From: Halobaculum roseum
GTDB taxonomy: Archaea > Halobacteriota > Halobacteria > Halobacteriales > Haloferacaceae
Assembly (NCBI RefSeq): GCF_019880245.1
Contig: NZ_CP082288.1
Span: 124,001 to 188,000 of the forward strand
DNA: 64,000 nucleotides
Reading direction: 5' to 3'
The notes below the pieces were generated by a model. The model made no database searches and was not told the origin of the DNA. It saw only the letters and a program-made list of their open reading frames with translations. A program made the translations under genes and the position numbers. This document shows, piece after piece, positions 10,400-51,952 of this stretch (position 1 is the first letter of the stretch; every line of letters starts with the position of its first letter).

Positions 10400-10557
10400 G
10401 CGTTCACACCTGAACTGGCCGGCACAAAAGCCGTGGTGACCGTTCACTCCCCCCTATTTGAACGCCGGCGAGCATCGACGGCTATCGGGTACGGGTCGCC
10501 GCCGCCATCGAACACTCCGGGATGGCGTCCGGGACGTGAGAGACCAACGTTCGCGGA

Positions 10558-11694
10558 TCAGTCGACCCGGAATTCCGCGAGGGTCTCGGGGTCGACCTCG
10601 ATGCCGAGGCCCGGCCCGTCCGGCACGGGAACCGCTGTCCCCTCGTTCCGGATCGGGTCGACCGCGAGTTCCTCGCGGATCGGGTTCGGCGTCCGGTCGA
10701 ACTCGAGGCGCGGCGATCCCGGGAGCGTCGCGAGCAACTGCAGGCTCGCCGCGAGCGCGACGGCGCTCCCGAAGACGTGCGGGTACGTCGCCAGCCCGGC
10801 GGCGTGGGCGATCTCGGCGGCCCGGCGCGACGACGTGAGCCCGCCGGCGCTGGTTACGTCCGGCTGGAGTACGTCGACCGCACCCGCGTTCGCCACGCGC
10901 CGGAACTCGGGCGCGAACGCCCAGCATTCCCCGCCGGCGATCGGCACGTCGCTGTCCTCGGCGAGTCGTGCGTACGCGTCGATCCGGTCGGGAGGGAGCG
11001 GCTCCTCGAAGAACTCGATGTCCAGATCCGCGAGACCGTCGGCCACGCGGCGGGCCGCCGGGAGATCGTAGGCGTGGTTCGCGTCCGCCATCAACGCGAT
11101 GTCGTCGCCCACCGCCTCCCGGACGGCCCGGACGAGTTCGATGTCGTACTCCGGCCCCCAGCCGAAGTGTCGCTGCATGCCGATCTTCATCTTGAGTGCG
11201 CCGAATCCGGCGTCGACGTGGGACTTCGCCTCCGAGACGACCGACTCCCTGACCGTCTCGAACTCGTCGGCTGGCGGCCAGAAGTGTCCCGTCGCGTACG
11301 CGGGAACCGCGCCGCGCCGGCGCCCCCCGCGCAGCGTCGCGGCCGACGCCCCGGCCGCTTTGCCGCGGAGGTCCCAGAGCGCGAGGTCGACACCGCTGAC
11401 GGCGCCCGCCGGGATCGTCGAGTGGTACGCCGACCGGAGGTCGTGAACGAGGTCCCCGTGGACCGACTCGACGCGTTCGGCGTCCCGTCCCCGAAGAACC
11501 GCCGCGATCCGGTCGTCGATCAGTTCGCGCGTTCCCGCTATCGGCCCCCAGCACTCGCCCCAGCCGACGGCGCCGTCCGCGGTCTCGATCCGAACCAAAC
11601 AGTACTCGCGGGAGTCGATCCACTTCTGTGCGTTCGCGAACCGCTCGTCGAGCTCTCGACGTAACGGAACCGCGTCGACGTGTCGGATCTCCAT
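10558..11694 (-). CDS. Enolase-superfamily enzyme, mandelate racemase subgroup
   Basis: A 378-residue enolase-superfamily protein. It shows the KMKIG (KxK) base motif, metal ligands in MADANHAYD, EFFEEPL and AGGECWAF, then QPDVTSAGG and YPHVFGSAV, which fit the Asp-His dyad of the mandelate racemase subgroup. This subgroup racemises or dehydrates alpha-hydroxy acids and acid sugars. It points away from the acyl-CoA synthetase gene, with about 100 nt between the two starts, so both probably use one divergent promoter region. The substrate is unknown; an acid-sugar dehydratase or 2-hydroxy-acid racemase feeding the island is plausible. Confidence 0.85.
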   Translation of the reverse strand: MEIRHVDAVPLRRELDERFANAQKWIDSREYCLVRIETADGAVGWGECWGPIAGTRELIDDRIAAVLRGRDAERVESVHGDLVHDLRSAYHSTIPAGAVSGVDLALWDLRGKAAGASAATLRGGRRRGAVPAYATGHFWPPADEFETVRESVVSEAKSHVDAGFGALKMKIGMQRHFGWGPEYDIELVRAVREAVGDDIALMADANHAYDLPAARRVADGLADLDIEFFEEPLPPDRIDAYARLAEDSDVPIAGGECWAFAPEFRRVANAGAVDVLQPDVTSAGGLTSSRRAAEIAHAAGLATYPHVFGSAVALAASLQLLATLPGSPRLEFDRTPNPIREELAVDPIRNEGTAVPVPDGPGLGIEVDPETLAEFRVD

Positions 11695-37326: not shown

Positions 37327-38760
37327 ATGAGTGAGCGTATCACACGACGCCGGACGCTGGCCGCGCTGGGTGCGACGGGCATCGCGGGTTTGGCCGGCTG
37401 TGCCGGCGGGAACGGCGGCGACGGAACCGAAACCGACGGAGATACCGCGGCGGCGGACACGGAGACGACCGACGACATGGACGGGACAACGACGGGGAGT
37501 TCGAGCGGGGCGTCCGGGACGGTGAAGATCGGCGTGCTGCAGCCCATCTCGGGCGACCTCCAGTACTACGGGCAACAGGCGCTGTGGGGCTTCTCGTCCG
37601 GGCTCGGGTACAAAGCGGGTGCCGAGCCGTCGGTGACCGCGGAGACCGGCAGCCAGACTGTCACCGTCGGCGACGTGGACTACGAGCTGTACATCCGTGA
37701 CACGCAGTTCTCGGCGGACACCGCCCAGACGCTCGCGACGAACCTGGTCACCGACGAGGAGGTCGACATGCTGTTCGGCTGCGCCTCCTCGGGGGCCGCC
37801 ACCCGCGTGAGCACGACCGTCGCCCAGCAGGCCGGCGTCCCGTACATGGCCGGTCCCGCGGCGTCGGCGTCGCTCACGTCCGGGTCGGAGGCGTGCGCCG
37901 ACAACGTGTTCCGCGCCTCCGAGAACACGGCGATGGACGCGCGCTCGGGCGGGAAGTACGTCGCTCAGGAGTCGGACGTGTCGAGGGTGTTCCTGTTCGG
38001 CGCCGACTACTCGTTCGGCCGCGCCGTCGTCAACAACTACGAGCAGGTGCTCACGAACGAGGGCGTCGAGATCGTCGGCAAGCGGTTCGTCCCGCAGGGC
38101 TACAGCGAGTGGGAGGGGTTGCTCGACAACGCCGTCGAGGCCGGCGCCGAGGGCATCGTCGGCGGGTTCACCGTCGCGACCCTCCCGAACCTGTTCACGA
38201 CGTACCTCCAGGGCGACTACGACTTCACCGTGTTCGGCGGCTTCGCGACCTCGATCACGAACAACGTCGTCGGCGGCCTGCTCCAGAACCAGCTGGGCGA
38301 GCCGCTCACCGAGGAGAAGCTCGACGGCCTCGGCGTCGGTCCGTTCACCACCCGCTACCACTGGAACCAGTACGACAACGAGATCAACTCGGCGTTCGTC
38401 GACGGCTACGTGAACGCCTACGGGCGGGTGCCGGATCTCTTCACCTCGGGGACGTTCACCGCGGCCTCAGCGATCGTGCAGGGCGTCGAGGAGGGCGGCT
38501 CCACCGAGGGCGCCGACATCGCCGAGGCGTTGCGCGGGATGACCGTCGCGGACACGCCGAAGGGGACGGACGCGTACACCTTCCAGGAGTACAACAACCA
38601 GGCCCGATCGGAGATGACCGTCGCGAACGTCGTCCCCACGGCCGACGAGTGGAGCGACGCCTGGGGCGCGGCCGTCCAGCCGAGCGAGCCCGTCGCGCGC
38701 ATCGCGGCCGAGGAGACGACGATCCCGGCCGACAGCGACGACATGAACTGCTCGCTGTAG
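37327..38760 (+). CDS. ABC transporter substrate-binding lipoprotein (branched-chain amino acid/amide type)
   Basis: A 477-residue extracytoplasmic binding protein of the LivJ/UrtA/AmiC class. The Tat signal ITRRRTLAALGATGIAG leads to the lipobox LAGCAGG, then a Thr/Asp/Gly-rich linker of about 40 residues. The periplasmic-binding fold starts at VKIGVLQPISGDLQYYG. Its stop abuts the ATG of the first ATPase with no gap. The ligand could be an amino acid, short-chain amide or urea; the KAS III-like gene at the operon's end hints at a carboxylic acid. Confidence 0.92.
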   Translation: MSERITRRRTLAALGATGIAGLAGCAGGNGGDGTETDGDTAAADTETTDDMDGTTTGSSSGASGTVKIGVLQPISGDLQYYGQQALWGFSSGLGYKAGAEPSVTAETGSQTVTVGDVDYELYIRDTQFSADTAQTLATNLVTDEEVDMLFGCASSGAATRVSTTVAQQAGVPYMAGPAASASLTSGSEACADNVFRASENTAMDARSGGKYVAQESDVSRVFLFGADYSFGRAVVNNYEQVLTNEGVEIVGKRFVPQGYSEWEGLLDNAVEAGAEGIVGGFTVATLPNLFTTYLQGDYDFTVFGGFATSITNNVVGGLLQNQLGEPLTEEKLDGLGVGPFTTRYHWNQYDNEINSAFVDGYVNAYGRVPDLFTSGTFTAASAIVQGVEEGGSTEGADIAEALRGMTVADTPKGTDAYTFQEYNNQARSEMTVANVVPTADEWSDAWGAAVQPSEPVARIAAEETTIPADSDDMNCSL

Positions 38761-39654
38761 ATGCTTCGCACGAGCGGCCTCACGAAGCGGTTCGGCGGGC
38801 TCACCGCCGTCGATGACGTGGACTTCGCGCTCGACGGTGACGAGCTGTGCTCGCTGATCGGCCCCAACGGCGCCGGCAAGACGACGTTCTTCAACCTCCT
38901 CACGGGGGTGCTCGAACCGACCGAGGGCGCCGTCGAATTCCGAGCCGGGAACGGCGGGAGCGTCGACACCGGCAGCGATGAAGCCGACGCGGCGAACGGT
39001 GACACGGACGACACCGACGGCTGGCGCGACATCACCGGCGACGCGCCACACGAGATCGCGTCGCTCGGCGTCCACCGGTCGTACCAGGTGACGAACGTGT
39101 TCCCGAACTCGACCGTGCTGGAGAACGTCCGCGTCGCCGCGCAGGCCGCCGGCGGCGAGGGCACCAACTTCTGGCGAAACGCCGGCCAGCTCGACCGGTA
39201 CATCGAGGAGGCGTACGCGATCCTCGATCGCGTCGACTTGGCGGACAGCGCCGAGGTACCCGCCAGCGCGCTGTCGCACGGGGCGAAGCGCCAACTGGAG
39301 GTCGGGATCGCGCTCGCCGGCGACCCGGACGTGCTCCTGCTCGACGAGCCGAACGCCGGCGTCTCCTCCGAGAGCGTCGACCGCGTCGTCGACCTCATCG
39401 AGGACGTGGCGACGGATCACGCCGTGCTGCTCGTCGAGCACAACATGGACATCGTGATGGAGGTGTCCGACCGCGTCGTCGTGCTCAACCAAGGTGCGGT
39501 TATCGCCGACGACGAACCGGCCGCCGTCAGGGACGATCCCGCCGTCCAGAAGGCGTATCTCGGCGGCTACGAGCCCGGAAGCGCGACCAACGCCGCATCG
39601 TCCGACGCCGGCGACGACGCGGACACGGGAACGAACGGGGGTGAACCGGCGTGA
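38761..39654 (+). CDS. ABC transporter ATPase, LivG-like
   Basis: A 297-residue ATPase. Walker A GPNGAGKTT, signature LSHGAKRQLEVGIAL and Walker B VLLLDEPNAGV are intact, with the LivG-type GYEPG end. An acidic insertion of about 25 residues (around SVDTGSDEADAANGDTDDTD) sits between Walker A and the Q-loop strand, and the C-terminus adds a polar tail. Starts directly after the binding protein and overlaps the next ATPase by four bases. Confidence 0.92.
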   Translation: MLRTSGLTKRFGGLTAVDDVDFALDGDELCSLIGPNGAGKTTFFNLLTGVLEPTEGAVEFRAGNGGSVDTGSDEADAANGDTDDTDGWRDITGDAPHEIASLGVHRSYQVTNVFPNSTVLENVRVAAQAAGGEGTNFWRNAGQLDRYIEEAYAILDRVDLADSAEVPASALSHGAKRQLEVGIALAGDPDVLLLDEPNAGVSSESVDRVVDLIEDVATDHAVLLVEHNMDIVMEVSDRVVVLNQGAVIADDEPAAVRDDPAVQKAYLGGYEPGSATNAASSDAGDDADTGTNGGEPA

Positions 39655-40448
39655 GCGCGGACGCGAGCGCTGAGTCGAACGCGAGTACGGATGCGAGCAC
39701 TGACGCGGACGACCGCGTCGCCGACGAGTCCACGAGCGACGACCGCGGCGACCCGCTGCTCTCGCTGTCGGGCGTCGAGACGTACTACGGCGACAGCCAC
39801 GTGCTCGAGGGCGTCGACCTGGAGGTGTACGAGGGCGAGGTCGTCGCGCTGATGGGGCGAAACGGCGTCGGGAAGACGACGACGCTGCGCTCGGTGTTGC
39901 AGCTCACGCCCCCGCGCGAGGGATCGATCCGATACCGCGGCGAGGAACTCGTGGGGCGAGAGACTCACGAGGTCGCCGCCCGCGGCCTGGGGTGGATCCC
40001 CGAGAACAGGCGTATGTTCGGACAGCTCACCGTCGAGGAGAACGTCCGCGTGGCCGTCCCGGCCGCCGACGACGCCGACGAGGCGCTGGATCTGGCATTC
40101 GACACGTTCCCGGACCTCCGGGAGCGATGCGACGCGAAGGCGGGCGACCTCTCGGGCGGGCAACAGCAGATGCTCTCCATCGCCCGCGGGCTCGTCGGCG
40201 AGAACGACCTGTTGCTCGTCGACGAGCCCAGCGAGGGGCTGGCGCCGCTCATCGTCGAGGCCGTCGCGGAGGCGCTGACTGAGGCGGCCAGCGACACGAC
40301 GATGCTGCTGGTCGAACAGAACCTCCCGCTCGCGCTCGACGTGGCCGACCGGTTCTACGTGCTCGATCACGGCACCGTCGTCGACGAGGGCGACACCGAC
40401 GCCGTCAGCGCCGACGGCGACCGACTCCGGAGGTACCTCTCGGCATGA
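39651..40448 (+). CDS. ABC transporter ATPase, LivF-like
   Basis: A 265-residue ATPase started by GTG in a GTGA overlap with the preceding stop. A Ser/Asp-rich leader of about 35 residues precedes LLSLSGVETYYGDSHVLEGV. Walker A GRNGVGKTT, LSGGQQQML and LLLVDEPSEGLAP are complete. Partner of the LivG-like subunit. Confidence 0.92.
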   Translation: MSADASAESNASTDASTDADDRVADESTSDDRGDPLLSLSGVETYYGDSHVLEGVDLEVYEGEVVALMGRNGVGKTTTLRSVLQLTPPREGSIRYRGEELVGRETHEVAARGLGWIPENRRMFGQLTVEENVRVAVPAADDADEALDLAFDTFPDLRERCDAKAGDLSGGQQQMLSIARGLVGENDLLLVDEPSEGLAPLIVEAVAEALTEAASDTTMLLVEQNLPLALDVADRFYVLDHGTVVDEGDTDAVSADGDRLRRYLSA

Positions 40449-41503
40449 GCGCGATCGCTCACGCGGCGGCGTCGCTGGCCTCGCTCGCGCCCGCCGGAGC
40501 CGCGCTCCCCCTGCAGTTCACGGACGCGTTGATCGAGTTCCTCTCGCCGACGACGCTCGCGGACGTGATCGTTCGCGGGATCGCCGAGGCGAGCCTCTAC
40601 GTGATGATCGCCGCCGGCCTGACGCTGGTGTTCGGGCTGATGGGCGTGCTCAACTTCGCCCACGGGTCGCTGACGATGCTGGGCGCGTACCTCGGCGGGC
40701 TGGTGCTCGTGACCGTAGTCGCGCAGTCGACCGGCGGGGCCGGGCGACTGCTCGCGTTCGGCGTCGCCGTCGTCGTCGCCTTCGGCGCGCTCGCAGCGCT
40801 CGGCGGCGGGCTGGAGATCGGGCTCGTGCGGCCGATCTACGACCGGCCACCGCTGTATCAGATCCTGCTCACCTTCGGCGTGACGCTGGTGCTCGACGAG
40901 CTGGCGCGCATCGTCGTGCTGTTCTACGGCCTGCAGCCGACGACCGTCTGGCAGGACGTGCTCGGGACGAAGCCGGCGTTCCTCGCCGACTCGCTCGGCG
41001 TCGCCGGCGTCTCCGCGAGCGGGCTGGAGCTGTTCCACATCCTGTTCGGCGTCGCGACCGTCGTCGGCGTCCACCTGTTTCTCACCCGGACGCGCTACGG
41101 GCTGTTCGTGCGCGCCGGCGGCGAGGACAGCGAGATGCTGTCGGCGCTCGGCGTCGACGTGAACCGGGTGTTCACCGTCGTGTTCGCGCTCGGGACCGGC
41201 ATCGCCGGCGCCGCAGGCGTGCTGCTCGCGTGGGACCCCTCGTGGGGCGCGTCGGTACCGCTGGCTGCTGAAACGCTGCTCCCGGCGTTCGTCGTCGTGA
41301 TCGTCGGCGGACTGGGAACCTTCCGCGGCACCGTCGTCGCGGCGCTGATCGTCGGCCTGGTCGACTCGTCGATGACGTGGTGGTTCCAGAACTTCGTCGA
41401 CTTCACCGGCCTGCCGGAGATGGTGGTGTTCCTCGTGCTCGTGATCACGCTGATCGTGAAGCCGCAGGGCCTCTACGGCGTCTCGGAGGTGGGGGGCCAT
41501 TAG
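40445..41503 (+). CDS. ABC transporter permease, LivH-like
   Basis: A 352-residue permease with about eight hydrophobic segments. LTLVFGLMGVLNFAHGSLTM is the characteristic LivH opening; the coupling loop EDSEMLSALGVDVNRVF lies in the C-half. ATGA overlap with the second ATPase gene. Its TAG stop lies inside the sequence ATTAG, which may start the next gene. Confidence 0.92.
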   Translation: MSAIAHAAASLASLAPAGAALPLQFTDALIEFLSPTTLADVIVRGIAEASLYVMIAAGLTLVFGLMGVLNFAHGSLTMLGAYLGGLVLVTVVAQSTGGAGRLLAFGVAVVVAFGALAALGGGLEIGLVRPIYDRPPLYQILLTFGVTLVLDELARIVVLFYGLQPTTVWQDVLGTKPAFLADSLGVAGVSASGLELFHILFGVATVVGVHLFLTRTRYGLFVRAGGEDSEMLSALGVDVNRVFTVVFALGTGIAGAAGVLLAWDPSWGASVPLAAETLLPAFVVVIVGGLGTFRGTVVAALIVGLVDSSMTWWFQNFVDFTGLPEMVVFLVLVITLIVKPQGLYGVSEVGGH

Positions 41504-41744
41504 CTCACCCGACGACGGCTCCGCGGACGGAGCCGACTCCGAAGCACGCGCCGACACGGGCGACGCGGACTCCGGATCCGCCGGGACGACCGTCGGCGAC
41601 GGCGGGGAGTCCGTCGACGCGACGGCGGACACCGACGCCGTCGACGGCGCCGTCGACGCCGCGACCGCGATCGAGCGGTACGGGGGCGGGACGGACACCG
41701 CGTGGTACCGGCAGTACGCCGAGGACCATCTGGTCCACCTGGTC

Positions 41745-42944
41745 GTGATACTCGCGTTCGCCGCGTACCCCGGCGTATACGCCCTGCTCGTGAACTCCGG
41801 GCTCTCGGCGGAAGTCACCGCCCTGTTGCCCCGGATCGAGACGCTCGTCGTCGTGTTGTTCTTCGCGCTGTTCGCGATGTCGTTCGACTTCATCAGCGGC
41901 TACACCGGCTATCTCTCCTTCGGGCACGCGGCGTTCTACGGCACCGGCGCCTACCTCGTCGCGCTCGCGGCCAACGGGAAGATCCCGCTGTTGGGTCCGG
42001 AGACACCGTTCATGCTGCTGCTCGTGCTCGCTGGCGTCGCCGCCGCGGTGCTGGCGCTCGCCATCGGGAGCGTGTCGTTCCGCCTGTCGGGCGTCTACTT
42101 CGCGATGATCACCCTCGGGTTCTCGCAAGTGTTGTACGTGTTCATGCGAGACTGGGACTTCGTCTCCTCGGCGCCGCGAGACGGCGTCGCGGTGACGGGC
42201 ACGTTCGAGGGGTTCCGGATCGGCGTCCCCGGCGTCGACGGGCTCTCGGTCGCGATCGGGCAGCTCACGGGCGACTCGATCGAGGGGCTGTTCGGCTTCA
42301 TCAATCTCTCGCCGACCGAGGTGTCGTTCTACGCCATCGGGGCGGTGGTGCTCGTGTGTTACCTCGCGATGCAGCGGCTCGTCCACTCGCCGTTCGGGCG
42401 GACGCTGATCGCGATCCGCGAGAACGAGGAGCGTGCCCGGGCGATCGGGTACAACACCTACGCGTACAAGCTCGGGGCCTTCGTCGTCTCCGGCTTCTTC
42501 GCCGGGATCGCCGGCGCGCTGTTCGTCGGGTTCCGGCGCTCGGTGACGCCCGAGAACGGGTTCTACTTCCTCGTCGCCGGCGACGCGCTGTTGGTGTCGA
42601 TCATCGGCGGGTTCGGCACGCTGGCCGGGCCGCTGTACGGCGAGCTGTTCGACGCGACCGTCCGCGAGTTCCTCTCGAAGGAGGGCGGCGGCGGCGGTTT
42701 GCTGCCGTATCTGCGCGCGAACGTCGGCGACGCGACGCTCGCGACCGAGATATACAATGGACTCACGGTCGCCGAGGCCATCGACACGTTCCTGAACGGC
42801 CACGCCGCGCTGTACGTCGGCCTGCTGTTCGTCCTGTTCGTGTTGTACGTCCCGAACGGCCTGCTCGGCACCGCCCGCGACCGCATGGGTGGCAGGCTGG
42901 CGAAGGCCGTCCCGCGTCACCTCCGGCGGTGGTTCGATGGCTGA
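41745..42944 (+). CDS. ABC transporter permease, LivM-like (true start probably upstream)
   Basis: From the GTG given here, 399 residues, with the LivM signature FDFISGYTGYLSFGHAAFYG and coupling loop ENEERARAIGYNTYAYKLGA. The frame is open upstream for 82 codons to ATT at 41499, which overlaps the LivH stop (ATTAG). That stretch reads as a haloarchaeal acidic leader followed by AIERYGGGTDTAWYRQYAED, which looks coding. It contains no ATG, GTG or TTG. The protein may therefore start at a non-canonical ATT, with about 480 residues. Its stop overlaps the next gene by 8 nt. Confidence 0.88.
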   Translation: MILAFAAYPGVYALLVNSGLSAEVTALLPRIETLVVVLFFALFAMSFDFISGYTGYLSFGHAAFYGTGAYLVALAANGKIPLLGPETPFMLLLVLAGVAAAVLALAIGSVSFRLSGVYFAMITLGFSQVLYVFMRDWDFVSSAPRDGVAVTGTFEGFRIGVPGVDGLSVAIGQLTGDSIEGLFGFINLSPTEVSFYAIGAVVLVCYLAMQRLVHSPFGRTLIAIRENEERARAIGYNTYAYKLGAFVVSGFFAGIAGALFVGFRRSVTPENGFYFLVAGDALLVSIIGGFGTLAGPLYGELFDATVREFLSKEGGGGGLLPYLRANVGDATLATEIYNGLTVAEAIDTFLNGHAALYVGLLFVLFVLYVPNGLLGTARDRMGGRLAKAVPRHLRRWFDG

Positions 42945-44001
42945 GGGGCGGACCGTCGGCCTCACCGGCCTCGGCACGTACGTGCCCGACGAGGTGTTGA
43001 CCGGGGAGGAGATCGGGGAGATCAGTGGGATCCCCGAGGAGATCGTCATCGAGAAGATGGGCATGCGCGAGAAGCGCGTCTGCCCGCCCGACGACGACCA
43101 CGTGAGCGACATGTGCGTCGCGGCGGGTCGCGAGGCGCTGGCGGACGCCGGCGTCGACCCGGGTTCCCTCGATCTGGTGCTGTATCACGGCAGCGAGTAC
43201 AAGGACCACGTCGTCTGGTCGGCCGCCGCGGACGTGGCCGAGCGCCTCGGCGCGGACGACGCCTACGCCCACGAGTCGTACGCGCTGTGTGCGGGCGCGC
43301 CGATCGCGATCCGGCACACGGCCGCCCAGCTCCGCGTCGGCGACATCGACCGCGCGCTGCTGGTCGCCGCGAGTCGCGAGGAGGACCTGGTCGACTACGC
43401 CGACGGGGACGCGAGCTTCATGTTTAACTTCGGTTCGGGCGCGGCCGCGACGGTTCTGGAGGCCGACCCCGGGGACGACCGGACGCGGGCAGTCGTCCGC
43501 GAGTCGGCGGCGACGACCGACGGGGGCTTCTCCCGCGACGTGGTGATGCCCGCGGGCGGGTCGGCGAAGCCGCCGAGCCGCGAGACCGTCGAGACGGGCG
43601 AGCACACGCTGACGGTTCCCGACCCGGATGACATGAAGGAACGACTCGCGGACGTGTCGGCGCCGTCGTTCCTGTCGGTCGCCGACGAGGCGCTAACCGG
43701 CTCCGGATACGAGCGCGACGACATCGACTTCCTGGCGCTCACCCACATGAAGCGGTCGTTCCACGGGTACCTGTGTGACGAACTCGGCGTCGACGACGGC
43801 GGCCAGTACTACCTGGACGACTACGGCCACGTCCAGAGCGCCGATCAGGCGCTCGCACTCCGGGAGGGACTCGACCTGGGACGCGTCGCCGACGGCGACG
43901 TGGTCCTCTTTCTCGCGGCGGGGACCGGCTACACGTGGGCGGCGACCGTGTTGGAGTGGACCGTCGCTGAGTCGTCGGCCCCGTCGAAACCTCCGGAGTG
44001 A
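42937..44001 (+). CDS. KAS III-like (3-oxoacyl-ACP synthase III family) enzyme
   Basis: A 354-residue thiolase-fold protein of the FabH class, starting MAEGRTVGLTGLGTYVPDEV. The nucleophile is Cys118 in SYALCAGAP and the His is H270 in FLALTHMKRSF. The position normally Asn reads YGHVQSADQ, so a second His (H298) replaces it. Archaeal lipids are isoprenoid and need no FabH, so the enzyme probably transfers or condenses an acyl group in another pathway. It overlaps the LivM-like gene by 8 nt and is thus expressed with the importer, suggesting it acts on the imported acid after activation. Confidence 0.85.
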   Translation: MAEGRTVGLTGLGTYVPDEVLTGEEIGEISGIPEEIVIEKMGMREKRVCPPDDDHVSDMCVAAGREALADAGVDPGSLDLVLYHGSEYKDHVVWSAAADVAERLGADDAYAHESYALCAGAPIAIRHTAAQLRVGDIDRALLVAASREEDLVDYADGDASFMFNFGSGAAATVLEADPGDDRTRAVVRESAATTDGGFSRDVVMPAGGSAKPPSRETVETGEHTLTVPDPDDMKERLADVSAPSFLSVADEALTGSGYERDDIDFLALTHMKRSFHGYLCDELGVDDGGQYYLDDYGHVQSADQALALREGLDLGRVADGDVVLFLAAGTGYTWAATVLEWTVAESSAPSKPPE

Positions 44002-44096
44002 CGATCGTGGGACCAACGCGTTCTCCTGTCCGCCGTGAGACGCCGACCGGAGGACGGTGCAGAAGAGATATTGTTCCACGTACGGACGTGTAAACG

Positions 44097-45290
44097 ATGC
44101 CCTCCAGACGCGCGGTACTTGCCGGACTCGCCGGCGGAGCCGTCGGCTCCCTCGCGGGGTGTGTGAACACCGCCGGAACCTCAGCGGAGCCGGGAACGGA
44201 CTCGAATACGGACTGGCCGATGTTCGGCGCGGATCGTCTGCGGTCGGGATACGTTCCCTCGGCGGCCGCTCCACGGTCCGCGCCCGGTGAGCGATTCACG
44301 GCCTCGCTCGAGGGAACGCCCATCGGCCAACCCATCGTTGCCGACGGAACCGTCCTCCAGTCGACGTGGTACGGTATCGAGGCGTTCGACGCGGCCGACG
44401 GCGAGTCGCTGTGGCGGTTCCGGGACGAGGAACCGGAAGACACGGCCGTCCAGTACCAGCCGCCGGCCGTTCACGACGGGGTCGCATACGTGGGAACGGA
44501 ATCGGGCCTCGTCGCGCTCGATGCGGGATCGGGCGAGGTGCGATGGCGCGTGGAAACGGACAGTCGGGTCTCGGCACCGCCGGTAGCGGGGTACGACTGG
44601 ACCCACCTCTACGTCGGGACGGTCGAGGGAACCCTCCTCGACGTGGTGCTCGAGGGAGGGAGTTCCGAACCCCCGGGGACGGTCCAGTGGACGAAATCCG
44701 TGTACGGGGAGATCGTCAGGCTCGTCGCTTCGAACGTTGCCGGTGTGACCGCGGGGACGAGTGGCGGGGAGGTGTTCATGGTGTACGACGGCCGTGGGCT
44801 CTGGCGCACGAAAGTTCCCGGCGGCGTCACCGCGATGACGGCCGAACGGGGCAACTCGCTGTACGTCGCGACCTTCGGCGGGGGCGTCCTCAAGCTACGA
44901 ACCGCCGCCCACGCCGGCCGTGTGAGCTGGCACGCCGAGGAGGGACCGGTCGCACAGGGGCTACTCGTTCGTGCCGCCGGCGGGGTCCACGGTGCCGATG
45001 GCGGCGGCCTCACGTCGCTGCGTACCGATGACGGAGGCGAACGCTGGACGTTCGACGACGCCGCGAGCAGCGTTCCCGCAGCCGCCGGCGACACGCTGTA
45101 TATCGGCGGGGAGGACAGAATCCTCGCGTACAAACTCGACGGCGGGACCGGCGTCGGCGGAGCACGGATCGACCCACTGCGGTGGCAGTACACGCACGAG
45201 GGCGGGTACGTCTCGGGCGTGAGTGTCGCGGACGGTGCCGTCTTCGCGGCCGTCGGTGACGACGATCGGCGGATCCTCGCGCTGGAGTGA
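44097..45290 (+). CDS. Secreted PQQ-like beta-propeller lipoprotein
   Basis: A 397-residue protein. The signal MPSRRAVLAGLAGGAVGSLA with lipobox LAGCVN marks a Tat-exported lipoprotein. The remainder is a propeller of PQQ/WD-like blades (GIEAFDAADGESLWRF, GLVALDAGSGEVRWRV, SLRTDDGGERWTF). Such proteins may scaffold or, with cofactor, act as dehydrogenases; the catalytic residues of PQQ enzymes are not evident. A TATA-like GATATTG about 30 nt before the ATG implies its own leaderless promoter. Confidence 0.85.
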   Translation: MPSRRAVLAGLAGGAVGSLAGCVNTAGTSAEPGTDSNTDWPMFGADRLRSGYVPSAAAPRSAPGERFTASLEGTPIGQPIVADGTVLQSTWYGIEAFDAADGESLWRFRDEEPEDTAVQYQPPAVHDGVAYVGTESGLVALDAGSGEVRWRVETDSRVSAPPVAGYDWTHLYVGTVEGTLLDVVLEGGSSEPPGTVQWTKSVYGEIVRLVASNVAGVTAGTSGGEVFMVYDGRGLWRTKVPGGVTAMTAERGNSLYVATFGGGVLKLRTAAHAGRVSWHAEEGPVAQGLLVRAAGGVHGADGGGLTSLRTDDGGERWTFDDAASSVPAAAGDTLYIGGEDRILAYKLDGGTGVGGARIDPLRWQYTHEGGYVSGVSVADGAVFAAVGDDDRRILALE

Positions 45291-45477: not shown

Positions 45478-46746
45478 ATGACGACGTTCCCAGAGGACGA
45501 CGCGCTCGCCGGCGAGTTCACGGTTCCCGACGACGTTCGGCCGGTCGTCGATCGCGTCATCGAGTTCATCGAGGAGGAGGTGCTGCCGTACGAGGAGGAA
45601 CACGCCGAGCACGTCGGCGGCCCCCTGGACTACCTCGACGACGACGGCCTCATGAAGCCCGAGACGCGTGCGATGCAGGAGGAGATCCGGAAGCGCAGCG
45701 CCGACGCGGGGCTGTACGCGCTGCATCTCCCCGAGGAGGTCGGCGGCGGCGGCCTCTCGAACCGCGAGCACTTCTACGTCCAGGAGGCGGTGTTCCGCTA
45801 CGGCACCGGACACGGGTCCAGCGTCGCCCGGGCGATGATGGCGTGGACCGAGGGACCCTCGCCCGCGCTGTTGCATCTCGACGAGGACCAGCGCGAGGAG
45901 TGGCTCCGACCGCTCGTCGAGGGGCGGAAGACTGCCTGCATCGGCATCACCGAGCCGGGCGCCGGATCGGACGTGACGGCCATCTCGACGACCGCCGAGC
46001 GCGACGGCGACGGGTGGGTGCTCAACGGCGACAAGCGCTACATCACCAATGGACCGTTCGCCGACACCGCCCAGATCCTCGCGAAGGTGGAGGGGGCGGA
46101 TGGGCCGGCCCACGAGACGATGGGGATGTTCCTCGTCGACACCGACAACCCCGGCTTCGAGGTGGGGCAGCCGAACCTGAACATCATGATGGACGGCATC
46201 ACCTCCGACGTGCATCTCCGCGACTGCCGGGTCGCCGACGACCAACTCGTCGGCGAGGTGGGCGACGGCCTGCCGCTGGCGCTGTCGTGGGTGAACTGGC
46301 GCCGCGCCGGACGGGCCGGGATGTGTGCCGGGATGGGGCGGTACCTCCTCGACCGGATGCTCACGTACGCGAAAGAGCGCGAGACGTTCGGCGAGCCCAT
46401 CGGCACCAATCAGGCCGTGCAGTGGCCCATCGTCGAGACGGCGACGGAGATCCACGCCGTCCGCGAGTTCGGGACGGCACTGCTGGGCGCCTACGACGCG
46501 GAGGCGAACCTCCACGACCTCAGCCAGCCGGCGACCGCCCGGCGGAAGCTCTCGATGCTGAAGTACTACCCCGAGGACCGGCTGTTCGACTGGGCCGACC
46601 GCGCGATCCAGGTGCTCGGCGGCTACGGCCTCATGCGAGCCGGCGGGGTCGAGCGCGTGTTCCGGGTGGCGCGCAACCTCCGGATCCCCGCGGGGACGAC
46701 GGAGGTACAGAAACGAACCATCGCGAAGACGCTCGGCCTGGAGTGA
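45478..46746 (+). CDS. Acyl-CoA dehydrogenase family protein
   Basis: A 422-residue FAD-dependent acyl-CoA dehydrogenase-fold protein. FAD/substrate motifs ACIGITEPGAGSDVTAISTT and RYITNGPF, and the C-terminal QVLGGYGLMRAGGVERVFRV plus PAGTTEVQ, are clear. The usual catalytic Glu of the YEGT motif is replaced (PAGT). The alternative isovaleryl-type Glu is also not obvious, where RRAGRAG appears. It may use another base or have lost dehydrogenase activity. Expected electron acceptor is ETF. Its TGA overlaps the next ATG (TGATG). Confidence 0.88.
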   Translation: MTTFPEDDALAGEFTVPDDVRPVVDRVIEFIEEEVLPYEEEHAEHVGGPLDYLDDDGLMKPETRAMQEEIRKRSADAGLYALHLPEEVGGGGLSNREHFYVQEAVFRYGTGHGSSVARAMMAWTEGPSPALLHLDEDQREEWLRPLVEGRKTACIGITEPGAGSDVTAISTTAERDGDGWVLNGDKRYITNGPFADTAQILAKVEGADGPAHETMGMFLVDTDNPGFEVGQPNLNIMMDGITSDVHLRDCRVADDQLVGEVGDGLPLALSWVNWRRAGRAGMCAGMGRYLLDRMLTYAKERETFGEPIGTNQAVQWPIVETATEIHAVREFGTALLGAYDAEANLHDLSQPATARRKLSMLKYYPEDRLFDWADRAIQVLGGYGLMRAGGVERVFRVARNLRIPAGTTEVQKRTIAKTLGLE

Positions 46747-48041
46747 TGCGCGGGAGGGATCGCTCCATCCTGCTGCTCCTGCTCGACGGCGCGGCCGACC
46801 GGCCGGCCCCCGAACTGGACGGGCGGACGCCGCTTGAGGCCGCGGAGACGCCGAACCTCGACCGGCTCGCGACCGCCGGGATCAACGGGACGATGCACGT
46901 CGCCGACCCGGGCGTCCCGCTGTCGAGCGATCTCGCACACACCCGACTGTTCGGCTACGACCCCGAGGAGGTACCGGGGCGAGGCGTGCTTGAGGCACGA
47001 GGCTTCGGCCGCGACCCCCCCGCCGGCAGCGTCGTCTGCTCGGCGTCGTTCGCGTCGCTGGATCCCGAGACCGGAACGCGTGTCTCGGACCGCCATCTCG
47101 CGAGCGACGCCGCCGATTTCCCCGCGCTCGCGGACCGGGCCGGCGTCGCCACCGTCGACGTGCCGGTGGTCGAGGGCTGCACCGCGAGCTTCGAATACAC
47201 GTGGAAGAACCGGGGACTGGTGACGATTACTGCGGACACGGTGGTGTCGCCGGCGGTCACCGATGTCGACCCGTTCGAGGAGGGGCTTCCGGTCGTCGCC
47301 AGCGAGCCGACACGCGACGCGGAGCACCGGGCCGCCGCCCGGCGGACCGCCGACGCGCTGCGGACGTACACGCGCTCGACACGGTCGGCGCTTGCGGACG
47401 CGCCGGGGCCGGCGGACGTGGTGCTCTCGAAGTGGGCCGGCACGGCGACGCGTGTCGAGTCGTTCCGGCGGCGCCACGGCTTGGAGGCCGCGAGCGTGAC
47501 GCCCAAGCCGGTGTTGACGGGGCTGGCTCGGACCCTCGGGATGACCCACGTCGACCCGCCGGAGGGGTACGACGACCGGGCGGACCTCGCGCTCGACACG
47601 CTCGCCGACCACGAGTTCGTCCACGTCCACTATCCGGAGCCCGACGAGGTGTCCCACGCCGCCGGTCCCGAGGAGAAGCGCGACGAGTTGGCGTCCATCG
47701 ACGCGTCGCTCGCGCCGGTGGTCGAGCGCGCGCTGGAGGACCCGGAGCTGGTCACCGTCGTCACCGCCGACCACACCACGCCGAGCACGGAGGACGTGGT
47801 CCACTCCGGGGAGCCTGTGCCCGTGACGATGGTCGCCGAGCCCGTTCGCGTCGACGACGTGGACGCGGTCGGGGAGCGTCCGGCCGCCAATGGCGGGTTC
47901 CGGGACGTGCGCGGTCGGGAGCTGTTGAAGACCGCGCGGGCGGCCGCCGACCGTGTCATGCTCGACGGGCTGCGTCGGACGCCGGCGGTCCGTGACTACC
48001 CGACGACGGAGGTGACGCCGCTGTGGCCGCGCGAGGAGTGA
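46746..48041 (+). CDS. apgM: ApgM-like cofactor-independent phosphoglycerate mutase / alkaline-phosphatase superfamily protein
   Basis: A 431-residue member of the archaeal 2,3-BPG-independent phosphoglycerate mutase family. ILLLLLDGAADRP (metal Asp), TPNLDRLATAG, PGVPLSSDLAHTRLFGYDPE with the Ser nucleophile region and VTVVTADHTTPSTEDVVHSG match the family. ApgM interconverts 3- and 2-phosphoglycerate, but relatives act on other phosphoesters or phosphonates. Its start overlaps the acyl-CoA dehydrogenase stop and its own stop overlaps the next GTG. An identical role in glycolysis is possible; the neighbours allow another. Confidence 0.85.
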   Translation: MRGRDRSILLLLLDGAADRPAPELDGRTPLEAAETPNLDRLATAGINGTMHVADPGVPLSSDLAHTRLFGYDPEEVPGRGVLEARGFGRDPPAGSVVCSASFASLDPETGTRVSDRHLASDAADFPALADRAGVATVDVPVVEGCTASFEYTWKNRGLVTITADTVVSPAVTDVDPFEEGLPVVASEPTRDAEHRAAARRTADALRTYTRSTRSALADAPGPADVVLSKWAGTATRVESFRRRHGLEAASVTPKPVLTGLARTLGMTHVDPPEGYDDRADLALDTLADHEFVHVHYPEPDEVSHAAGPEEKRDELASIDASLAPVVERALEDPELVTVVTADHTTPSTEDVVHSGEPVPVTMVAEPVRVDDVDAVGERPAANGGFRDVRGRELLKTARAAADRVMLDGLRRTPAVRDYPTTEVTPLWPREE

Positions 48042-49510
48042 GCTGGAGCCGGGCCGTCGCCGACGGTGGACGGGACCGCGACCGATCGGCCGGAGCACCC
48101 AGCGTCACGCCGGCTGCCGGGGCAGATCCGCGGCGATGCGGCTGTGCCGGCAAGACTCCACTCGACCGGGTGGTGTTGCCGGCACGCGACCGCATCCGCG
48201 ACGCGCTCAACGAGACGAGCGTCCGGCTGGGAACAGACTCCGACGCGGCGATCCTCCGGAATCCGACCGCCATCGACCCGACCGACCGGGCGGTCGACAC
48301 GGTCGCGCTCGGTGAGGAACAGCCCACAGCCCCGTTATCAGGCGACGCGGGGGGCGGTCCCGTCGTGACGCTCGCGTGTGCGTTCGTCGGCGACGACCTC
48401 GCGGACCCGGACGCCCTCGGCGACGCGCTGGCGACCGCCTACGCCGGCCTCGACGGGCCGGTCGTGACGATCGGGAAGGGCCACGCCGTGCAGATCCCCG
48501 ACCTCGATGGCGGCCTCCTCTGGCTCGAACACCTCCGGCAGGGAGGCGACAGTGGCAGCGACCGCGACGGCGACAACGACGGCGATAGAGGCAACGTCGG
48601 AAGGGCCGACGCCGGATTCGGTACCGAGTCCGCGGGGTTCGTCGCGGCGAACGTCGACGCGATCCACGCGTTTCCGGAGCTGTCGCCGCCGGAGCAGGCT
48701 CGGATCGCCGCCCTCAACGCCTGCAACGACGTGTACGCCGCCGGGGCGACTGCCGACCGCGTCGTCCGGCCGATGGTCGCCGTACCCGCCGGCGTCGACC
48801 TGCCGCCGTCGCGGGCGACCGACTGGTACCGCGCCGGGGTTCCGAACGAGGTGTCGGTGCTGCCTGCGTCGGTGCTCACCCACGGCGGCGAGAGCTGGCT
48901 CTTCGGCGCGAGTGTCACCGCCGGCGGCAACGTCGACCCGACCGGGTCGCCGCTCCCCGACGACTGCGATGTACTCTTGACGCGTCCGCTCGGGGGTTTG
49001 GCGGCGTTCGCACTCGGTCAGATCGACGGCGGCCGGGGCCTCCGCGAGTTGGGGCGGGACCGACTCACGCGGGACGCCCGACCCGTCGCCGAGGTGCTAG
49101 CCGCGTGTCGACCGGAGCCCGACGAGCCGTTCGATCCAGCGCGACACCTCGCTCGCGTCACCGACGTGTCCGGGGAGGGGATCGGCGGCGTCGGCCGCCT
49201 GGTCGCCGGCGAGGGACGGTCGCTTCGGCTCGACCGACTTCCGCTCCTGCCGGGAGTCGCCGACGCGGCAGCGGGAGGATGGACGATCCCCGACGCGACC
49301 GTGGAGACGAACGGCCCGTTCGCGGCGATCGGAACGCCGAGCGCCCTGGCGCGAGCGAGCGAGCGACTTCGGAGCGTCGAGGGCGCCGACCCCGTCCGGG
49401 TCGGTACGCTCGACCGCGGCGACGCGCCGATCCGCGACGCCACCGGCGGCGACCCGGCGCGGTTCATCGAGGCGGCCGCGCGCTGGCCGGCCGCGGGGGA
49501 GGACCGGTGA
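48038..49510 (+). CDS. SelD-like PurM-superfamily protein
   Basis: A 490-residue protein resembling selenophosphate synthase (SelD) in fold order. A Cys/Lys motif CGCAGK (C36, K39, like SelD CxxK) is followed by an LGTDSDAAIL segment, ALNACNDVYAAGATADRVVR, VTAGGNVDPTGSPLPDDCDV, LLTRPLGGLAAFALG and VTDVSGEGIGG. It is longer than the usual 340-350, owing to an Asp/Gly-rich insertion and a long N-terminus. GTG at 48038 is preferred because it gives a GTGA overlap; GTG at 48023 is also in frame. SelD uses ATP and selenide to make selenophosphate. A different PurM-type ATP-dependent step remains possible. Confidence 0.7.
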   Translation: MSWSRAVADGGRDRDRSAGAPSVTPAAGADPRRCGCAGKTPLDRVVLPARDRIRDALNETSVRLGTDSDAAILRNPTAIDPTDRAVDTVALGEEQPTAPLSGDAGGGPVVTLACAFVGDDLADPDALGDALATAYAGLDGPVVTIGKGHAVQIPDLDGGLLWLEHLRQGGDSGSDRDGDNDGDRGNVGRADAGFGTESAGFVAANVDAIHAFPELSPPEQARIAALNACNDVYAAGATADRVVRPMVAVPAGVDLPPSRATDWYRAGVPNEVSVLPASVLTHGGESWLFGASVTAGGNVDPTGSPLPDDCDVLLTRPLGGLAAFALGQIDGGRGLRELGRDRLTRDARPVAEVLAACRPEPDEPFDPARHLARVTDVSGEGIGGVGRLVAGEGRSLRLDRLPLLPGVADAAAGGWTIPDATVETNGPFAAIGTPSALARASERLRSVEGADPVRVGTLDRGDAPIRDATGGDPARFIEAAARWPAAGEDR

Positions 49511-50106
49511 CCGTCGGCCACGTCCACGGCCGCTTCCAGCCGTTCCACGACGGCCACCTCGCGTACTGCGAGTGGGCCGCCGAGGAGTGTGACGAGCTGA
49601 TCGTCGGGATCACGAACGCCGACCCCGCACACGTCGCCCACGAGACGGCCGACCCGGAGCGCGACGACCCGCGGAACAACCCGTTCCGCTACCACGAGCG
49701 CCACCGGATGGTGAGCGACGCGCTGGCGGCCGCGGATCTGGGCGTCCCCGTTCGCGTGCTCCCGTTCCCGATCAACCGCCCGGAGCTGTGGGAGCACTAC
49801 GCGCCGCCGGACGCGCTGCACCTCCTCCGGGTGCTCGAACCGTGGCACGAGGTGAAGGCGGACCGTCTGCGCGAGCACGGGCGAGCCGTGCGGACGATCG
49901 AGGCCGAGCGCACGGTGAGCGGAACGGCGATCCGCGAGTCGATGGCCGCCGAGGACGACGGACGCGGTGCACGGGACAGCAACCGACAGGATGCCACGTC
50001 CGACGCCAGCGCCGGTCGCTGGCGTGAGTCGGTGCCGCCGCCCGTGGAGGCCGTGATCGACGACATCGACGGCGCGGCGCGCGTGCGGTCGTTAGTCGAC
50101 GAGTGA
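49507..50106 (+). CDS. Nicotinamide-nucleotide adenylyltransferase-like (NadM)
   Basis: A 199-residue nucleotidyltransferase of the archaeal NadM type. HGRFQPFHDGHLAY (GxFxPxHxGH) opens the protein and TVSGTAIRESM supplies the second motif. It is 25-30 residues longer than usual because of a polar insertion (ARDSNRQDATSDASAG) before the last helix. It makes NAD from NMN and ATP in family members. GTG start in a GTGA overlap with the SelD-like gene, so the three enzymes are translationally linked. Confidence 0.85.
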   Translation: MTVGHVHGRFQPFHDGHLAYCEWAAEECDELIVGITNADPAHVAHETADPERDDPRNNPFRYHERHRMVSDALAAADLGVPVRVLPFPINRPELWEHYAPPDALHLLRVLEPWHEVKADRLREHGRAVRTIEAERTVSGTAIRESMAAEDDGRGARDSNRQDATSDASAGRWRESVPPPVEAVIDDIDGAARVRSLVDE

Positions 50107-50286: not shown

Positions 50287-50420
50287 GTTGTGAACTACCC
50301 TACCCTACTCGCTCACGGCTGACGCCGTTCGCTCCTTGAGGGAAGGGCTTCCTGTTTCCACGACGCGCTTTGCAGATACAGGTGTATCCACAGGGAGCGC
50401 AGTCTCCACAGGCGTTGATT
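50287..50420 (-). ncRNA. Putative omega RNA (guide RNA) of the IS200/IS605 element
   Basis: The 3' end of tnpB plus the right end forms the hairpin described for the element, ending in a GTAGGG-rich run. TnpB systems transcribe their guide RNA from this position, with the guide taken from the flank beyond the element (here leftward of about 50290). Extent is inferred; no direct evidence of transcription. Confidence 0.3.
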
Positions 50421-51546
50421 CGGAGTATCCCACTCCTATATCTTCGAGGCCACGAGAAAGAATGTTCCACGCCGCGTTTGCGTCCCTATCCGCTGCAAAC
50501 CCGCAGGCGGGACAGGAGTGTTCACGGACCCACAGCGGCTTGTCCGTCGAGACACCGCACGACGCACACTCCTTGGTTGTCCCTCTCGGGTTGACCGCTA
50601 CGAAGTGCGTTCCTTCGCGTTCGCACTTGTATTCGAGCAACGAGAGGAACGTCCGCCATGCGGCAGACGCGGTGTTGCGGCTGTTCGACGACGACTCCAC
50701 CATCCCCTTCACGTTCAGATCTTCGACTGCCACGAGGTCGTACTCCCGAGCGTAGTAGTTCGAGAGCTTGTGCAAGAAGTCGCGGCGCTTCCGTCGGAGG
50801 GCCGCGTGACACTCTGCAACGCGCCGTCGTTGCTTCTCGTAGTTGACAGAGCCGTGTTGCTTCCGCGAGAGCGTCCGTTGCTCGCGTTCCAAGCGTTCTC
50901 GTTCGGCGGAGAGGTCGAGCGACCCGACTGCCGTGCCGTCGGTGTCGTGGGCGTACGTGAGAATCCCTACGTCGATGCCGACGCACCGCTCGGGATTCTC
51001 GGGAGTCTCAGGCGGTTCGCGATCCATTTGGACGCCGAAGGTGGCGAACCACTCGCCCGTCGGTTCCTTCTTGACCGTGACCTGTTTGAGCGCCGCCTCG
51101 TCGGGGATGGTACGGTGGAGTCGAATCGGAATATCCGCGAGTTTCGAGAGCGACAGCACAGTCTGACCGCCCTTCTTGTCAAGCTTGAAGCCAGACTGAC
51201 TGTACGTGAAACTGCGGAACTCCCGTGGCGGCTTCCACTTGAGTTGACCGACGCCGTAGCCGTTCTTCTTGAGCGCGGAGAGGCCTTTCAGGTTGTCGAA
51301 CAGGCGTTCCACGACGGTTTGGAGAACCTTCGAGTACACGTCCGAGAGGCCATCCCACCACGTCTTGAGGTCGGGTAGTTCCGACCGCAGGGTGGTCATG
51401 GACGGCAATTCGCCGTGTTCGTCTTGGTACTCGTTGAGGCGGTAGCGCGTGTGGTTGTACAGTTGCCGACAAATGTCTCGGTGGCGGTCCAACTCCTCAC
51501 GGTGGGCGTCGGACGGCTTGAGGCGGTACTTGTAGGCGTAGTACAT
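50305..51546 (-). CDS. tnpB: RNA-guided endonuclease TnpB family protein
   Basis: A 413-residue TnpB (IS1341-type). The RuvC residues are all present: D192 in VGIDVG, E275 in VAVEDLNVKGM and D355 in ADRDANAAWN. The zinc ribbon has CASC (327-330) and CPAC (345-348). The N-terminal half has the usual KYRLKPSDAHREEL opening. The end AKRVVETGSPSLKERTASAV overlaps the structured right end. Looks intact and probably active as an omega-RNA-guided nuclease that favours element retention. Confidence 0.93.
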   Translation of the reverse strand: MYYAYKYRLKPSDAHREELDRHRDICRQLYNHTRYRLNEYQDEHGELPSMTTLRSELPDLKTWWDGLSDVYSKVLQTVVERLFDNLKGLSALKKNGYGVGQLKWKPPREFRSFTYSQSGFKLDKKGGQTVLSLSKLADIPIRLHRTIPDEAALKQVTVKKEPTGEWFATFGVQMDREPPETPENPERCVGIDVGILTYAHDTDGTAVGSLDLSAERERLEREQRTLSRKQHGSVNYEKQRRRVAECHAALRRKRRDFLHKLSNYYAREYDLVAVEDLNVKGMVESSSNSRNTASAAWRTFLSLLEYKCEREGTHFVAVNPRGTTKECASCGVSTDKPLWVREHSCPACGFAADRDANAAWNILSRGLEDIGVGYSESTPVETALPVDTPVSAKRVVETGSPSLKERTASAVSE

Positions 51547-51547
51547 T

Positions 51548-51952
51548 CTACTCGCGTTGGTTCTCGACGTACTGGTTCAGCACATCCAGCGACACCTGCC
51601 CCGTCGAGATGAGGCAATACGAATCGTTCCAGAACGAGTCGCCCCACAGGTCGGTCTTCAGTTCGTCCGCGTACTCGTTGCGGATACGGCGGGCGGTCGC
51701 GCCCTTGACCGTGTTGATGAACTTCACGAGGTCTGTGGTGGGTTTCGCTCGGAACAAGATGTGTACGTGGTCGTCCTCGCCGTCGAGGTTCGTCAGTTCG
51801 ACGCCGTAGTTGTCCGTGAACCCGCTGATGACCTCGTGAATGAATTGGGTTCGCTCCTCGGTGAGCACTCCGCGCCGATACTTCGTGGTGAGTACCAGGT
51901 GATAGTGCAGGGAATACGTCGAGTGCGCTCCCGAGTCGAGGTCGTATTCCAT
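51548..51952 (-). CDS. tnpA: IS200-type Y1 transposase TnpA
   Basis: A 134-residue HUH single-strand transposase. The HUH motif is H62-V-H64 in EDDHVHILF, and the catalytic Tyr is Y128 in LNQYVENQ. Length is normal (130-150). Starts with ATG and is followed by tnpB after one base. Confidence 0.93.
   Translation of the reverse strand: MEYDLDSGAHSTYSLHYHLVLTTKYRRGVLTEERTQFIHEVISGFTDNYGVELTNLDGEDDHVHILFRAKPTTDLVKFINTVKGATARRIRNEYADELKTDLWGDSFWNDSYCLISTGQVSLDVLNQYVENQRE

Follow-up and report, generated by a model that had tools for sequence, protein, structure and literature searches.

A four-gene module with a SelD-type enzyme in Halobacteria and Rhodococcus may belong to a new selenium- or sulfur-containing small-molecule pathway

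Introduction

Described prokaryotic uses of selenium are few: selenocysteine, selenouridine, a molybdenum-enzyme cofactor, selenoneine and ovoselenol (PMC13188914; selenium traits are also described or reviewed in PMC9312934 and PMC5029168). Here we analyse a run of four overlapping genes in the archaeon Halobaculum roseum, located in a 64,000-nucleotide stretch (positions 124,001 to 188,000 of contig NZ_CP082288.1) that is called the window below. The genes encode a flavoprotein of the acyl-CoA dehydrogenase (ACAD) family and relatives of the mutase ApgM, of selenide, water dikinase (SelD) and of the nicotinamide mononucleotide (NMN) adenylyltransferase NadM. The window contig has 336,694 bases, in a haloarchaeal genome of 3.72 Mb.

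Several described systems share part of this arrangement. In the selenoneine (sen) cluster, SenA/SenB/SenC, a selD-type gene likewise overlaps genes for small-molecule enzymes; the cluster was discovered through genes overlapping selD, and its authors anticipate more pathways (PMC9814287). Its partner enzymes belong to families unrelated to those of the present locus. SelD without a known selenium trait has been reported in at least 26 bacteria, several of them Actinobacteria, and a SelD-based trait of unknown nature was proposed, with isochorismatase-like, ABC ATPase and cysteine desulfurase-like genes as candidate partners (PMC5029168). The partners of our SelD relative are different, and the main text of that study, by the terms tried, names neither the gene families of our locus nor Rhodococcus. 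Haloarcula marismortui has an orphan SelD together with selenium-dependent molybdenum hydroxylases (SDMH), and no selenocysteine (Sec) or selenouridine (SeU) systems (PMC2276186), and thus provides another haloarchaeal SelD found without these two systems. A remote archaeal SelD relative that keeps the catalytic Cys and occurs without a known selenium trait is the crenarchaeal family described by NCBIfam model NF038049; its neighbours are SirA-like, Prx-like and sulfur genes (PMC4210487), whereas those of the present protein are NadM, ApgM and ACAD relatives. Finally, a PF01467 nucleotidyltransferase and an ApgM-family transferase act in phosphinothricin synthesis: PhpF, the nucleotidyltransferase of the two, cytidylylates phosphonoformate (PMC6697681), and PhpG, the ApgM relative, transfers according to its NCBIfam name the phosphonoformyl group to 3-phosphoglycerate. 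No description of the present four-gene combination was found in the part of the literature that was searched.

Results

Four overlapping genes form a conserved module

The ACAD, ApgM-like, SelD-like and NadM-like open reading frames (Table 1) follow each other on the + strand from 45478 to 50106 with serial overlaps. The TGA stop codon of the ACAD gene (46744-46746) shares one base with the ATG of the ApgM-like gene (46746), and the next two junctions consist of a stop codon overlapping a GTG start, at 48038-48041 and 49507-49510. The start of the SelD-like gene was taken as GTG 48038; an alternative in-frame GTG lies at 48023, and the RefSeq start of the H. magnesiiphilum SelD-like gene is 15 bases upstream of the aligned start. 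A preliminary description of the window, made from its letters, had proposed an overlapping ApgM-like/SelD-like/NadM-like run, coupled from the ACAD gene on, which the gene coordinates bear out. The interval that it gave, 46746-50106, correctly encloses the three genes and starts too late for the conserved unit, to which the ACAD gene (45478-46746) also belongs. The locus is a four-gene, translationally coupled module. The family labels ApgM, SelD and NadM agree with Pfam and NCBIfam as relatives: none of the three proteins reaches a specific equivalog or subfamily cut-off, and the suffix '-like' is apt for this reason.

The SelD-like gene was found in 11 of 391 Halobacteria genomes. The same 11 genomes carry a close NadM paralog (E < 1e-50; next match 5e-13) adjoining it, and nine carry the ApgM-like gene (E 1e-10), always beside the SelD-like gene and as the sole ApgM-type match in the sample at this threshold. 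The three genes are adjacent in 9/391 genomes; lack of co-occurrence, which the preliminary description had named as a refutation, was thus not observed. These counts are not independent, since eight of the 11 carriers belong to the genus of the window, and three sampled genomes of that genus lack the SelD-like gene, the NadM paralog and the ApgM-like gene. Outside the genus, loci were found in a genome of the same family (G311), in Halorussus salilacus (G176), in genome G123, in Halorientalis marina (L046) and in a Halobacteriales metagenome-assembled genome (L045). With H. lipolyticum (L050), L045 and L046 added to the 11 carriers of the sample, 14 distinct haloarchaeal loci are available, and all four genes occur together in 11 of them; L045 begins at a contig end, 66 bases before the SelD-like match, and ApgM and ACAD are not assessable there. 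The order and direction of the genes recur across genomes and are therefore more than chance. Six PLSDB plasmid records contain the SelD-like gene; other copies are on chromosome-sized contigs. A scan of genome contigs (query A1) returned four haloarchaeal loci, two of them shared with the class sample, and in one scan of viral contigs (query A4) no relative was found.

Table 1. Genes of the module and sequence motifs of their products (positions in the window)
Feature	Position	Strand	Remarks
ACAD-family flavoprotein	45478..46746	+	422 aa; opens the conserved module
ApgM-like alkaline-phosphatase-superfamily enzyme	46746..48041	+	431 aa
SelD-like dikinase, PurM/AIRS superfamily	48038..49510	+	490 aa; Halobacteria 11/391; AlphaFold model nearest SelD
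NadM-like nucleotidyltransferase	49507..50106	+	199 aa; NMN adenylyltransferase paralog
Cys36-x-x-Lys39 in CGC(A/G/S)GK (SelD-like)	48143..48154	+	motif counterpart of the essential SelD Cys-x-x-Lys
Predicted ATP/metal aspartates D69, D207, D231, D376 (SelD-like)	48242..49165 (first to last)	+	from alignment
His14-x-x-His17 nucleotidyltransferase motif (NadM-like)	49546..49557	+	unchanged in 13 haloarchaeal sequences
Trp113-x-x-x-Lys117, replacing the canonical NNPLV stretch (NadM-like)	49843..49857	+	unchanged in 13 haloarchaeal sequences

Other neighbours were seen in some genomes. In the Halorussus salilacus plasmid (L047, 2139-19050), the SelD-like/NadM-like pair, which lacks ApgM and ACAD partners, is accompanied by genes for a nucleoside monophosphate kinase, a methyltransferase, a glycosyltransferase, a DHHA2 protein, a methionine adenosyltransferase and a MATE exporter. 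Adenylate-kinase-like stretches (6619-7209 and 10316-10951) flank the SelD-NadM pair in the G123 locus (L032), and in H. lipolyticum (L050, 4255-7062) a gene for a PEP (phosphoenolpyruvate)/pyruvate-binding domain protein lies just upstream of the module, in divergent orientation.

Rhodococcus plasmids carry a related module with a canonical SelD

The ApgM-like and NadM-like sequences were used to search the proteins of 72,556 plasmids, and the two genes proved to lie side by side on Rhodococcus plasmids; the bacterial distribution given here is that on PLSDB plasmids. On a Rhodococcus pyridinivorans plasmid the order is TetR regulator, ACAD, selD, nucleotidyltransferase and alkaline-phosphatase-family protein. 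The Rhodococcus NadM-like protein has matches in seven Rhodococcus records, of which five (at least 96% identity) have selD, ACAD and ApgM-like genes around it and two present a different setting. The four plasmids opened among these five share the order ACAD-SelD-NadM-ApgM, and every junction between the four genes is a four-base overlap. The Rhodococcus module SelD is canonical: it has the motif GGGCACKLP, scores 378.5 bits against TIGR00476 (SelD, cut-off 125) and is about 45% identical to two SelDs encoded beside selA elsewhere. In bacteria the three partner families therefore occur with a canonical SelD, and in archaea the same three occur with a remote relative of SelD; this match across domains is the best clue to function. 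The Rhodococcus module lies within about 8 kb of a gene for an aromatic ring-cleavage dioxygenase. In R. rhodochrous GD02 (L075, 10794-13208) the ApgM-like gene is shortened and runs into an IS3 transposase gene, and in R. rhodochrous NZ_CP032676 the ApgM-like match spans only 51 residues.

The SelD-like protein keeps the predicted catalytic residues of SelD

The best curated match of the SelD-like protein is NF038049, named SelD-related putative sulfur metabolism protein, at 87.7 bits (below the cut-off of 250), and Pfam AIRS gives 15.8 bits, under the 24-bit cut-off. In a profile search of the PDB with an E limit of 1, two sequences came up, each of them a selenide, water dikinase 1 with an E of about 0.3. 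The SelD-like protein has a Cys-x-x-Lys with the same spacing as the pair that is essential in SelD (PMC4210487). C34, C36 and K39 were unchanged in all 13 haloarchaeal SelD-like sequences aligned, the pair Cys36-x-x-Lys39 being assigned by motif, in a region modelled at low confidence. Aspartates D207, D231 and D376 were also present in 13/13 sequences, and D69 in 12/13 (Glu in L032). By hhalign (probability 95%, only region 216-411) D231 corresponds to D91 and D376 to D227 of E. coli SelD; D69 and D207 were assigned to SelD aspartates by eye. The position of E. coli SelD Asn87 is occupied by Asn in nine and by His in four of the 13 sequences.

An AlphaFold model of the protein (mean pLDDT 69.7; first 38 residues below 50) had SelD as its top Foldseek matches (E 2.2e-10). 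Compared with SelD 3u0o_B it gave a VIA Z of 19.1 (3.8 A over 290 residues), and compared with ThiL and PurM a Z of about 14-15. Alignment and model together support the view that the SelD-like protein retains the predicted SelD catalytic motif, ATP/metal aspartates and a SelD-like fold. The preliminary description had noted a Cys/Lys motif, had named lack of ATP-binding residues as a possible refutation, and had suggested a structure check; the residues are present in the alignment and the model is nearest SelD.

The NadM-like protein is a paralog with an altered substrate site

The NadM-like protein passes Pfam CTP_transf_like and TIGR00125 and is homologous to NMN adenylyltransferase 1f9a (E 8.1e-21). 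Against TIGR01527 (archaeal NadM, cut-off 181.2) it scores 58.6 bits and the Rhodococcus copy 69.2. Residues H14 and H17 are also unchanged in 10 mixed sequences that include Rhodococcus and other bacteria. The NNPLV stretch and the N-x-x-W motif, which we take to be parts of the NMN site of NadM, are lost and replaced by W-x-x-x-K and P-x-L-W, whereas 11 canonical haloarchaeal NadMs keep the originals. W113 and K117 are likewise unchanged in the 10 mixed sequences and missing from 11/11 canonical haloarchaeal NadMs aligned. Archaeal and bacterial NadM-like proteins share an insertion of about 12 residues in addition to W-x-x-x-K; in a tree their clade is apart from the 11 canonical haloarchaeal NadMs with a support of 1.000. 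A NadM-type match exists in 391/391 Halobacteria genomes; in every one of the 11 carriers one or more are present beyond the module copy, as counted from the search matches. Judged by its sequence, the NadM-like protein is an extra copy, a paralog of NMN adenylyltransferase whose substrate site is altered.

Relatives of the NadM-like protein with W-x-x-x-K immediately precede a PEP/pyruvate-binding dikinase-like protein in Rhodococcus opacus (L060, 2436-4818), Treponema saccharophilum (L061, 9983-12410), Enterococcus gilvus (L062, 9989-12499) and R. pyridinivorans pRJH2 (L063, 5801-8205). Genes adjoining the dikinase-like protein encode a radical SAM protein in L060 and a DHH phosphoesterase in L063; in L061 they encode a cysteine desulfurase and a viperin-family protein. 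These four loci look like a putative second system, with another dikinase in the place of SelD.

The ApgM-like and ACAD proteins

Two general Pfam models, Metalloenzyme and PhosphMutase, recognise the ApgM-like protein above cut-off. It scores 251.2 bits against TIGR00306 (ApgM, below the cut-off of 320) and 168.4 bits against the PhpG model NF038358 (below the cut-off of 545); the corresponding scores of the Rhodococcus copy are 240.2 and 186.9. Residues D14, S61, D300, H304, D342, H343 and H353, presumably the catalytic Ser and the metal ligands, are unchanged in 10 ApgM-like sequences, and all seven are kept in Rhodococcus. Archaeal and Rhodococcus ApgM-like proteins are 33-34% identical, vs 23-30% with two outgroup mutases.

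All three Pfam domains of Acyl-CoA_dh (N, M and C) are over cut-off in the module ACAD. The Glu of the YEGT-type motif, which we assume to be the ACAD catalytic base (some subfamilies place the base elsewhere), is Ala405 (IPAGT) in the window protein. Ala occupies this position in all 12 aligned module ACADs of the 16 known (eight of 11 haloarchaeal and four of five Rhodococcus proteins), vs Glu in eight and Asp in one of the nine readable outgroups or paralogs. The paralogs L069, L071 and L072, read in a wrong frame, were kept in the ACAD tree and left out of residue counts. A motif NWRR..R.GMC is common to the module ACADs of both domains, and in an unrooted tree these proteins split from the nearest outgroups and paralogs with a support of 0.999. 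With a Rhodococcus module ACAD as query, 10 matches were found in the window genome, and the window ACAD was the best of them (318 bits vs 164). Of 1,786 records in the reverse plasmid search, the top six from outside Halobaculum include the five Rhodococcus module ACADs.

The selenium traits searched for were not found in carrier genomes

Selenium markers were scanned in 14 haloarchaeal genomes, the 11 carriers and the three genomes of the same genus without the module, and in 14 named control genomes. SelU gave no match at all in the haloarchaeal genomes (one control over cut-off); the presence of SelU, which the preliminary description would have taken as support for SelD, was thus not observed. 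Nothing was over cut-off in the 14 haloarchaeal genomes for SelB (two controls), YqeB (one control), classical SelD (TIGR00476) or TIGR04348, which we take to be the SenB family of the sen cluster; the last test is the weakest, because 0/14 control genomes passed. A YqeB-type maturation factor was also not annotated beside the module in the opened flanks. In conclusion, no known selenophosphate consumer was found in the 14 genomes with the markers SelB, SelU, YqeB and TIGR04348, and Sec, SeU and SDMH were set aside as uses of selenophosphate in these genomes. The support for selenium comes instead from the Rhodococcus modules, with their canonical SelD.

Genes next to the module

Genes for a branched-chain-type ABC transporter, a KAS III-like protein and a PQQ-like beta-propeller protein precede the module in the window (37327-45290). 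The transporter and KAS III genes are before the module in six of eight sampled Halobaculum loci, the window counted, and the PQQ gene is whole in three and partial in one of the sampled Halobaculum loci; none of these genes was seen adjoining the module in G294, G109, G311 or H. lipolyticum. Being inconstant beside the module, they were excluded as members. Downstream, at 50305-51952, two minus-strand open reading frames resemble by eye the TnpB and TnpA of an IS200/IS605 element. Elsewhere in the window (3129-3869, - strand) there is an isocitrate lyase/PEP mutase-type match of 98.8 bits, vs a PEP mutase cut-off of 319.55.

Discussion

The existence of the module is well supported; its substrates, the order of its steps, the choice between selenium and sulfur and its product are what we infer. 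We propose that the four enzymes act in the metabolism of a chalcogen-phosphate metabolite, most likely one of selenium, and give this proposal a probability of slightly under one half. The SelD-type enzyme would convert ATP and selenide (or sulfide) to selenophosphate (or thiophosphate). The NadM-like protein would join a nucleoside monophosphate, drawn from a nucleoside triphosphate, to this anion or to one of its organic derivatives. By analogy with PhpG and PhpF, the ApgM-like enzyme could then transfer the activated group to an alcohol acceptor by means of its active-site Ser and metals, with release of the nucleoside monophosphate, and the ACAD-derived flavoenzyme may catalyse a redox or bond-breaking step without the usual catalytic Glu. 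The sequence chalcogen phosphate, nucleotidyl activation, transfer is suggested because the SelD product would replace phosphonoformate in the PhpF/PhpG scheme. A narrower version is more doubtful: an undescribed selenium-utilisation trait common to Halobacteria and Actinomycetes, in which the NadM paralog turns selenophosphate into a nucleotide-activated form (e.g. a nucleoside 5'-selenodiphosphate), the ApgM-type transferase makes a selenometabolite from it and the flavoenzyme finishes the product. The preliminary description had spoken of a pathway whose product is phosphorylated or nucleotide-linked, and this is still the best frame, with the three genes and the ACAD gene as one unit; the supply of NAD (nicotinamide adenine dinucleotide), which it had also considered, is not supported.

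A number of observations weigh against this proposal. The haloarchaeal SelD-like protein scores 27.5 bits against TIGR00476, below the cut-off of 125, and HypE is close to it in structure (VIA Z 17.9 vs 19.1 for SelD). The opened flanks contain no annotated selenium transporter or selenocysteine lyase, the plasmid gene tables being incomplete. Two Haladaptataceae genomes, G176 and G123, have the SelD-NadM pair without ApgM or ACAD. The lead of the Rhodococcus ACADs in the plasmid search is small (255-259 bits vs 253 for Halostagnicola and 250 for Natrinema halophilum), and the ACAD of Natrinema gelatinilyticum outscores them with 281 bits; at that locus, none of ten other window genes searched was found within 5 kb. 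The gene order is ACAD-ApgM-SelD-NadM in archaea vs ACAD-SelD-NadM-ApgM in Rhodococcus, and in the NadM tree the Rhodococcus copy joins relatives from another gene setting (support 0.905), so that a single inherited module is not favoured. The module may thus have come together on separate occasions.

The same architecture could work with sulfur, the SelD-like protein making thiophosphate from sulfide and the module building a thio-metabolite. Thiophosphate has been proposed for the crenarchaeal SelD-like family (PMC4210487), whose model NF038049 is the best curated match of our protein, and the lack of any selenium trait over cut-off in the 14 genomes is in keeping with sulfur. The NF038049 cut-off is however not reached, the annotation of the opened flanks (with the same incomplete tables) shows no sulfur-transfer gene adjoining the module, and the Rhodococcus module uses a canonical SelD, for which reason selenium is favoured over sulfur; we regard the sulfur version as rather unlikely. 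PurM/AIRS superfamily members act on many different substrates, and SelD and its relative might have been co-opted as dikinases that act on a different acceptor, in which case the module would make or degrade an ordinary phosphorylated or nucleotide-linked acid without any chalcogen. That NadM-like relatives adjoin PEP/pyruvate-binding dikinase-like proteins in place of SelD would fit such a role, and the transporter and KAS III genes of Halobaculum and the dioxygenase gene of Rhodococcus could mean catabolism. We nevertheless consider it unlikely: Cys-x-x-Lys is present in all 13 haloarchaeal proteins and in the Rhodococcus SelD, and the latter is over the SelD cut-off.

The pair of enzyme families is that of PhpF and PhpG, and a pathway to a phosphonate or phosphinate, similar to that of phosphinothricin, was considered. 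It was rejected as the principal explanation and is very improbable: both ApgM-like proteins are far from the PhpG cut-off, we know of no SelD, and of no role for one, in the phosphinothricin pathway, and PEP mutase was over cut-off in 0/14 genomes, in a test that is weak because 11/14 had weaker matches and no control genome passed. Least credible of all is selenium metabolism with NAD supplied by the NadM-like protein, as the preliminary description had suggested. Homology to NMN adenylyltransferase is in its favour, but NAD supply was rejected because the module protein is an additional copy, in genomes that hold a further NadM-type match, and lacks the canonical NMN-site motifs.

The haloarchaeal proteins, as far as these models tell, are like parts of known systems and not members of them, their scores being below the cut-offs of SelD, NadM, ApgM, PhpG and NF038049. 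Archaeal NadM and ApgM are the fold families of two module proteins, with substrate-site motifs replaced in the first and a score below the cut-off in the second. The module fits no known selenium use checked and may belong to a new selenium- or sulfur-containing small-molecule pathway. With it the orphan SelD question gains concrete genes, namely SelD with a nucleotidyltransferase and a phosphotransferase, in Halobacteria and in Rhodococcus. If the chalcogen is sulfur, the module would put to the test the proposed synthesis of thiophosphate by SelD relatives; if it is selenium, the module would represent another SelD-dependent small-molecule pathway beside those of selenoneine and ovoselenol, and a new route of selenium activation.

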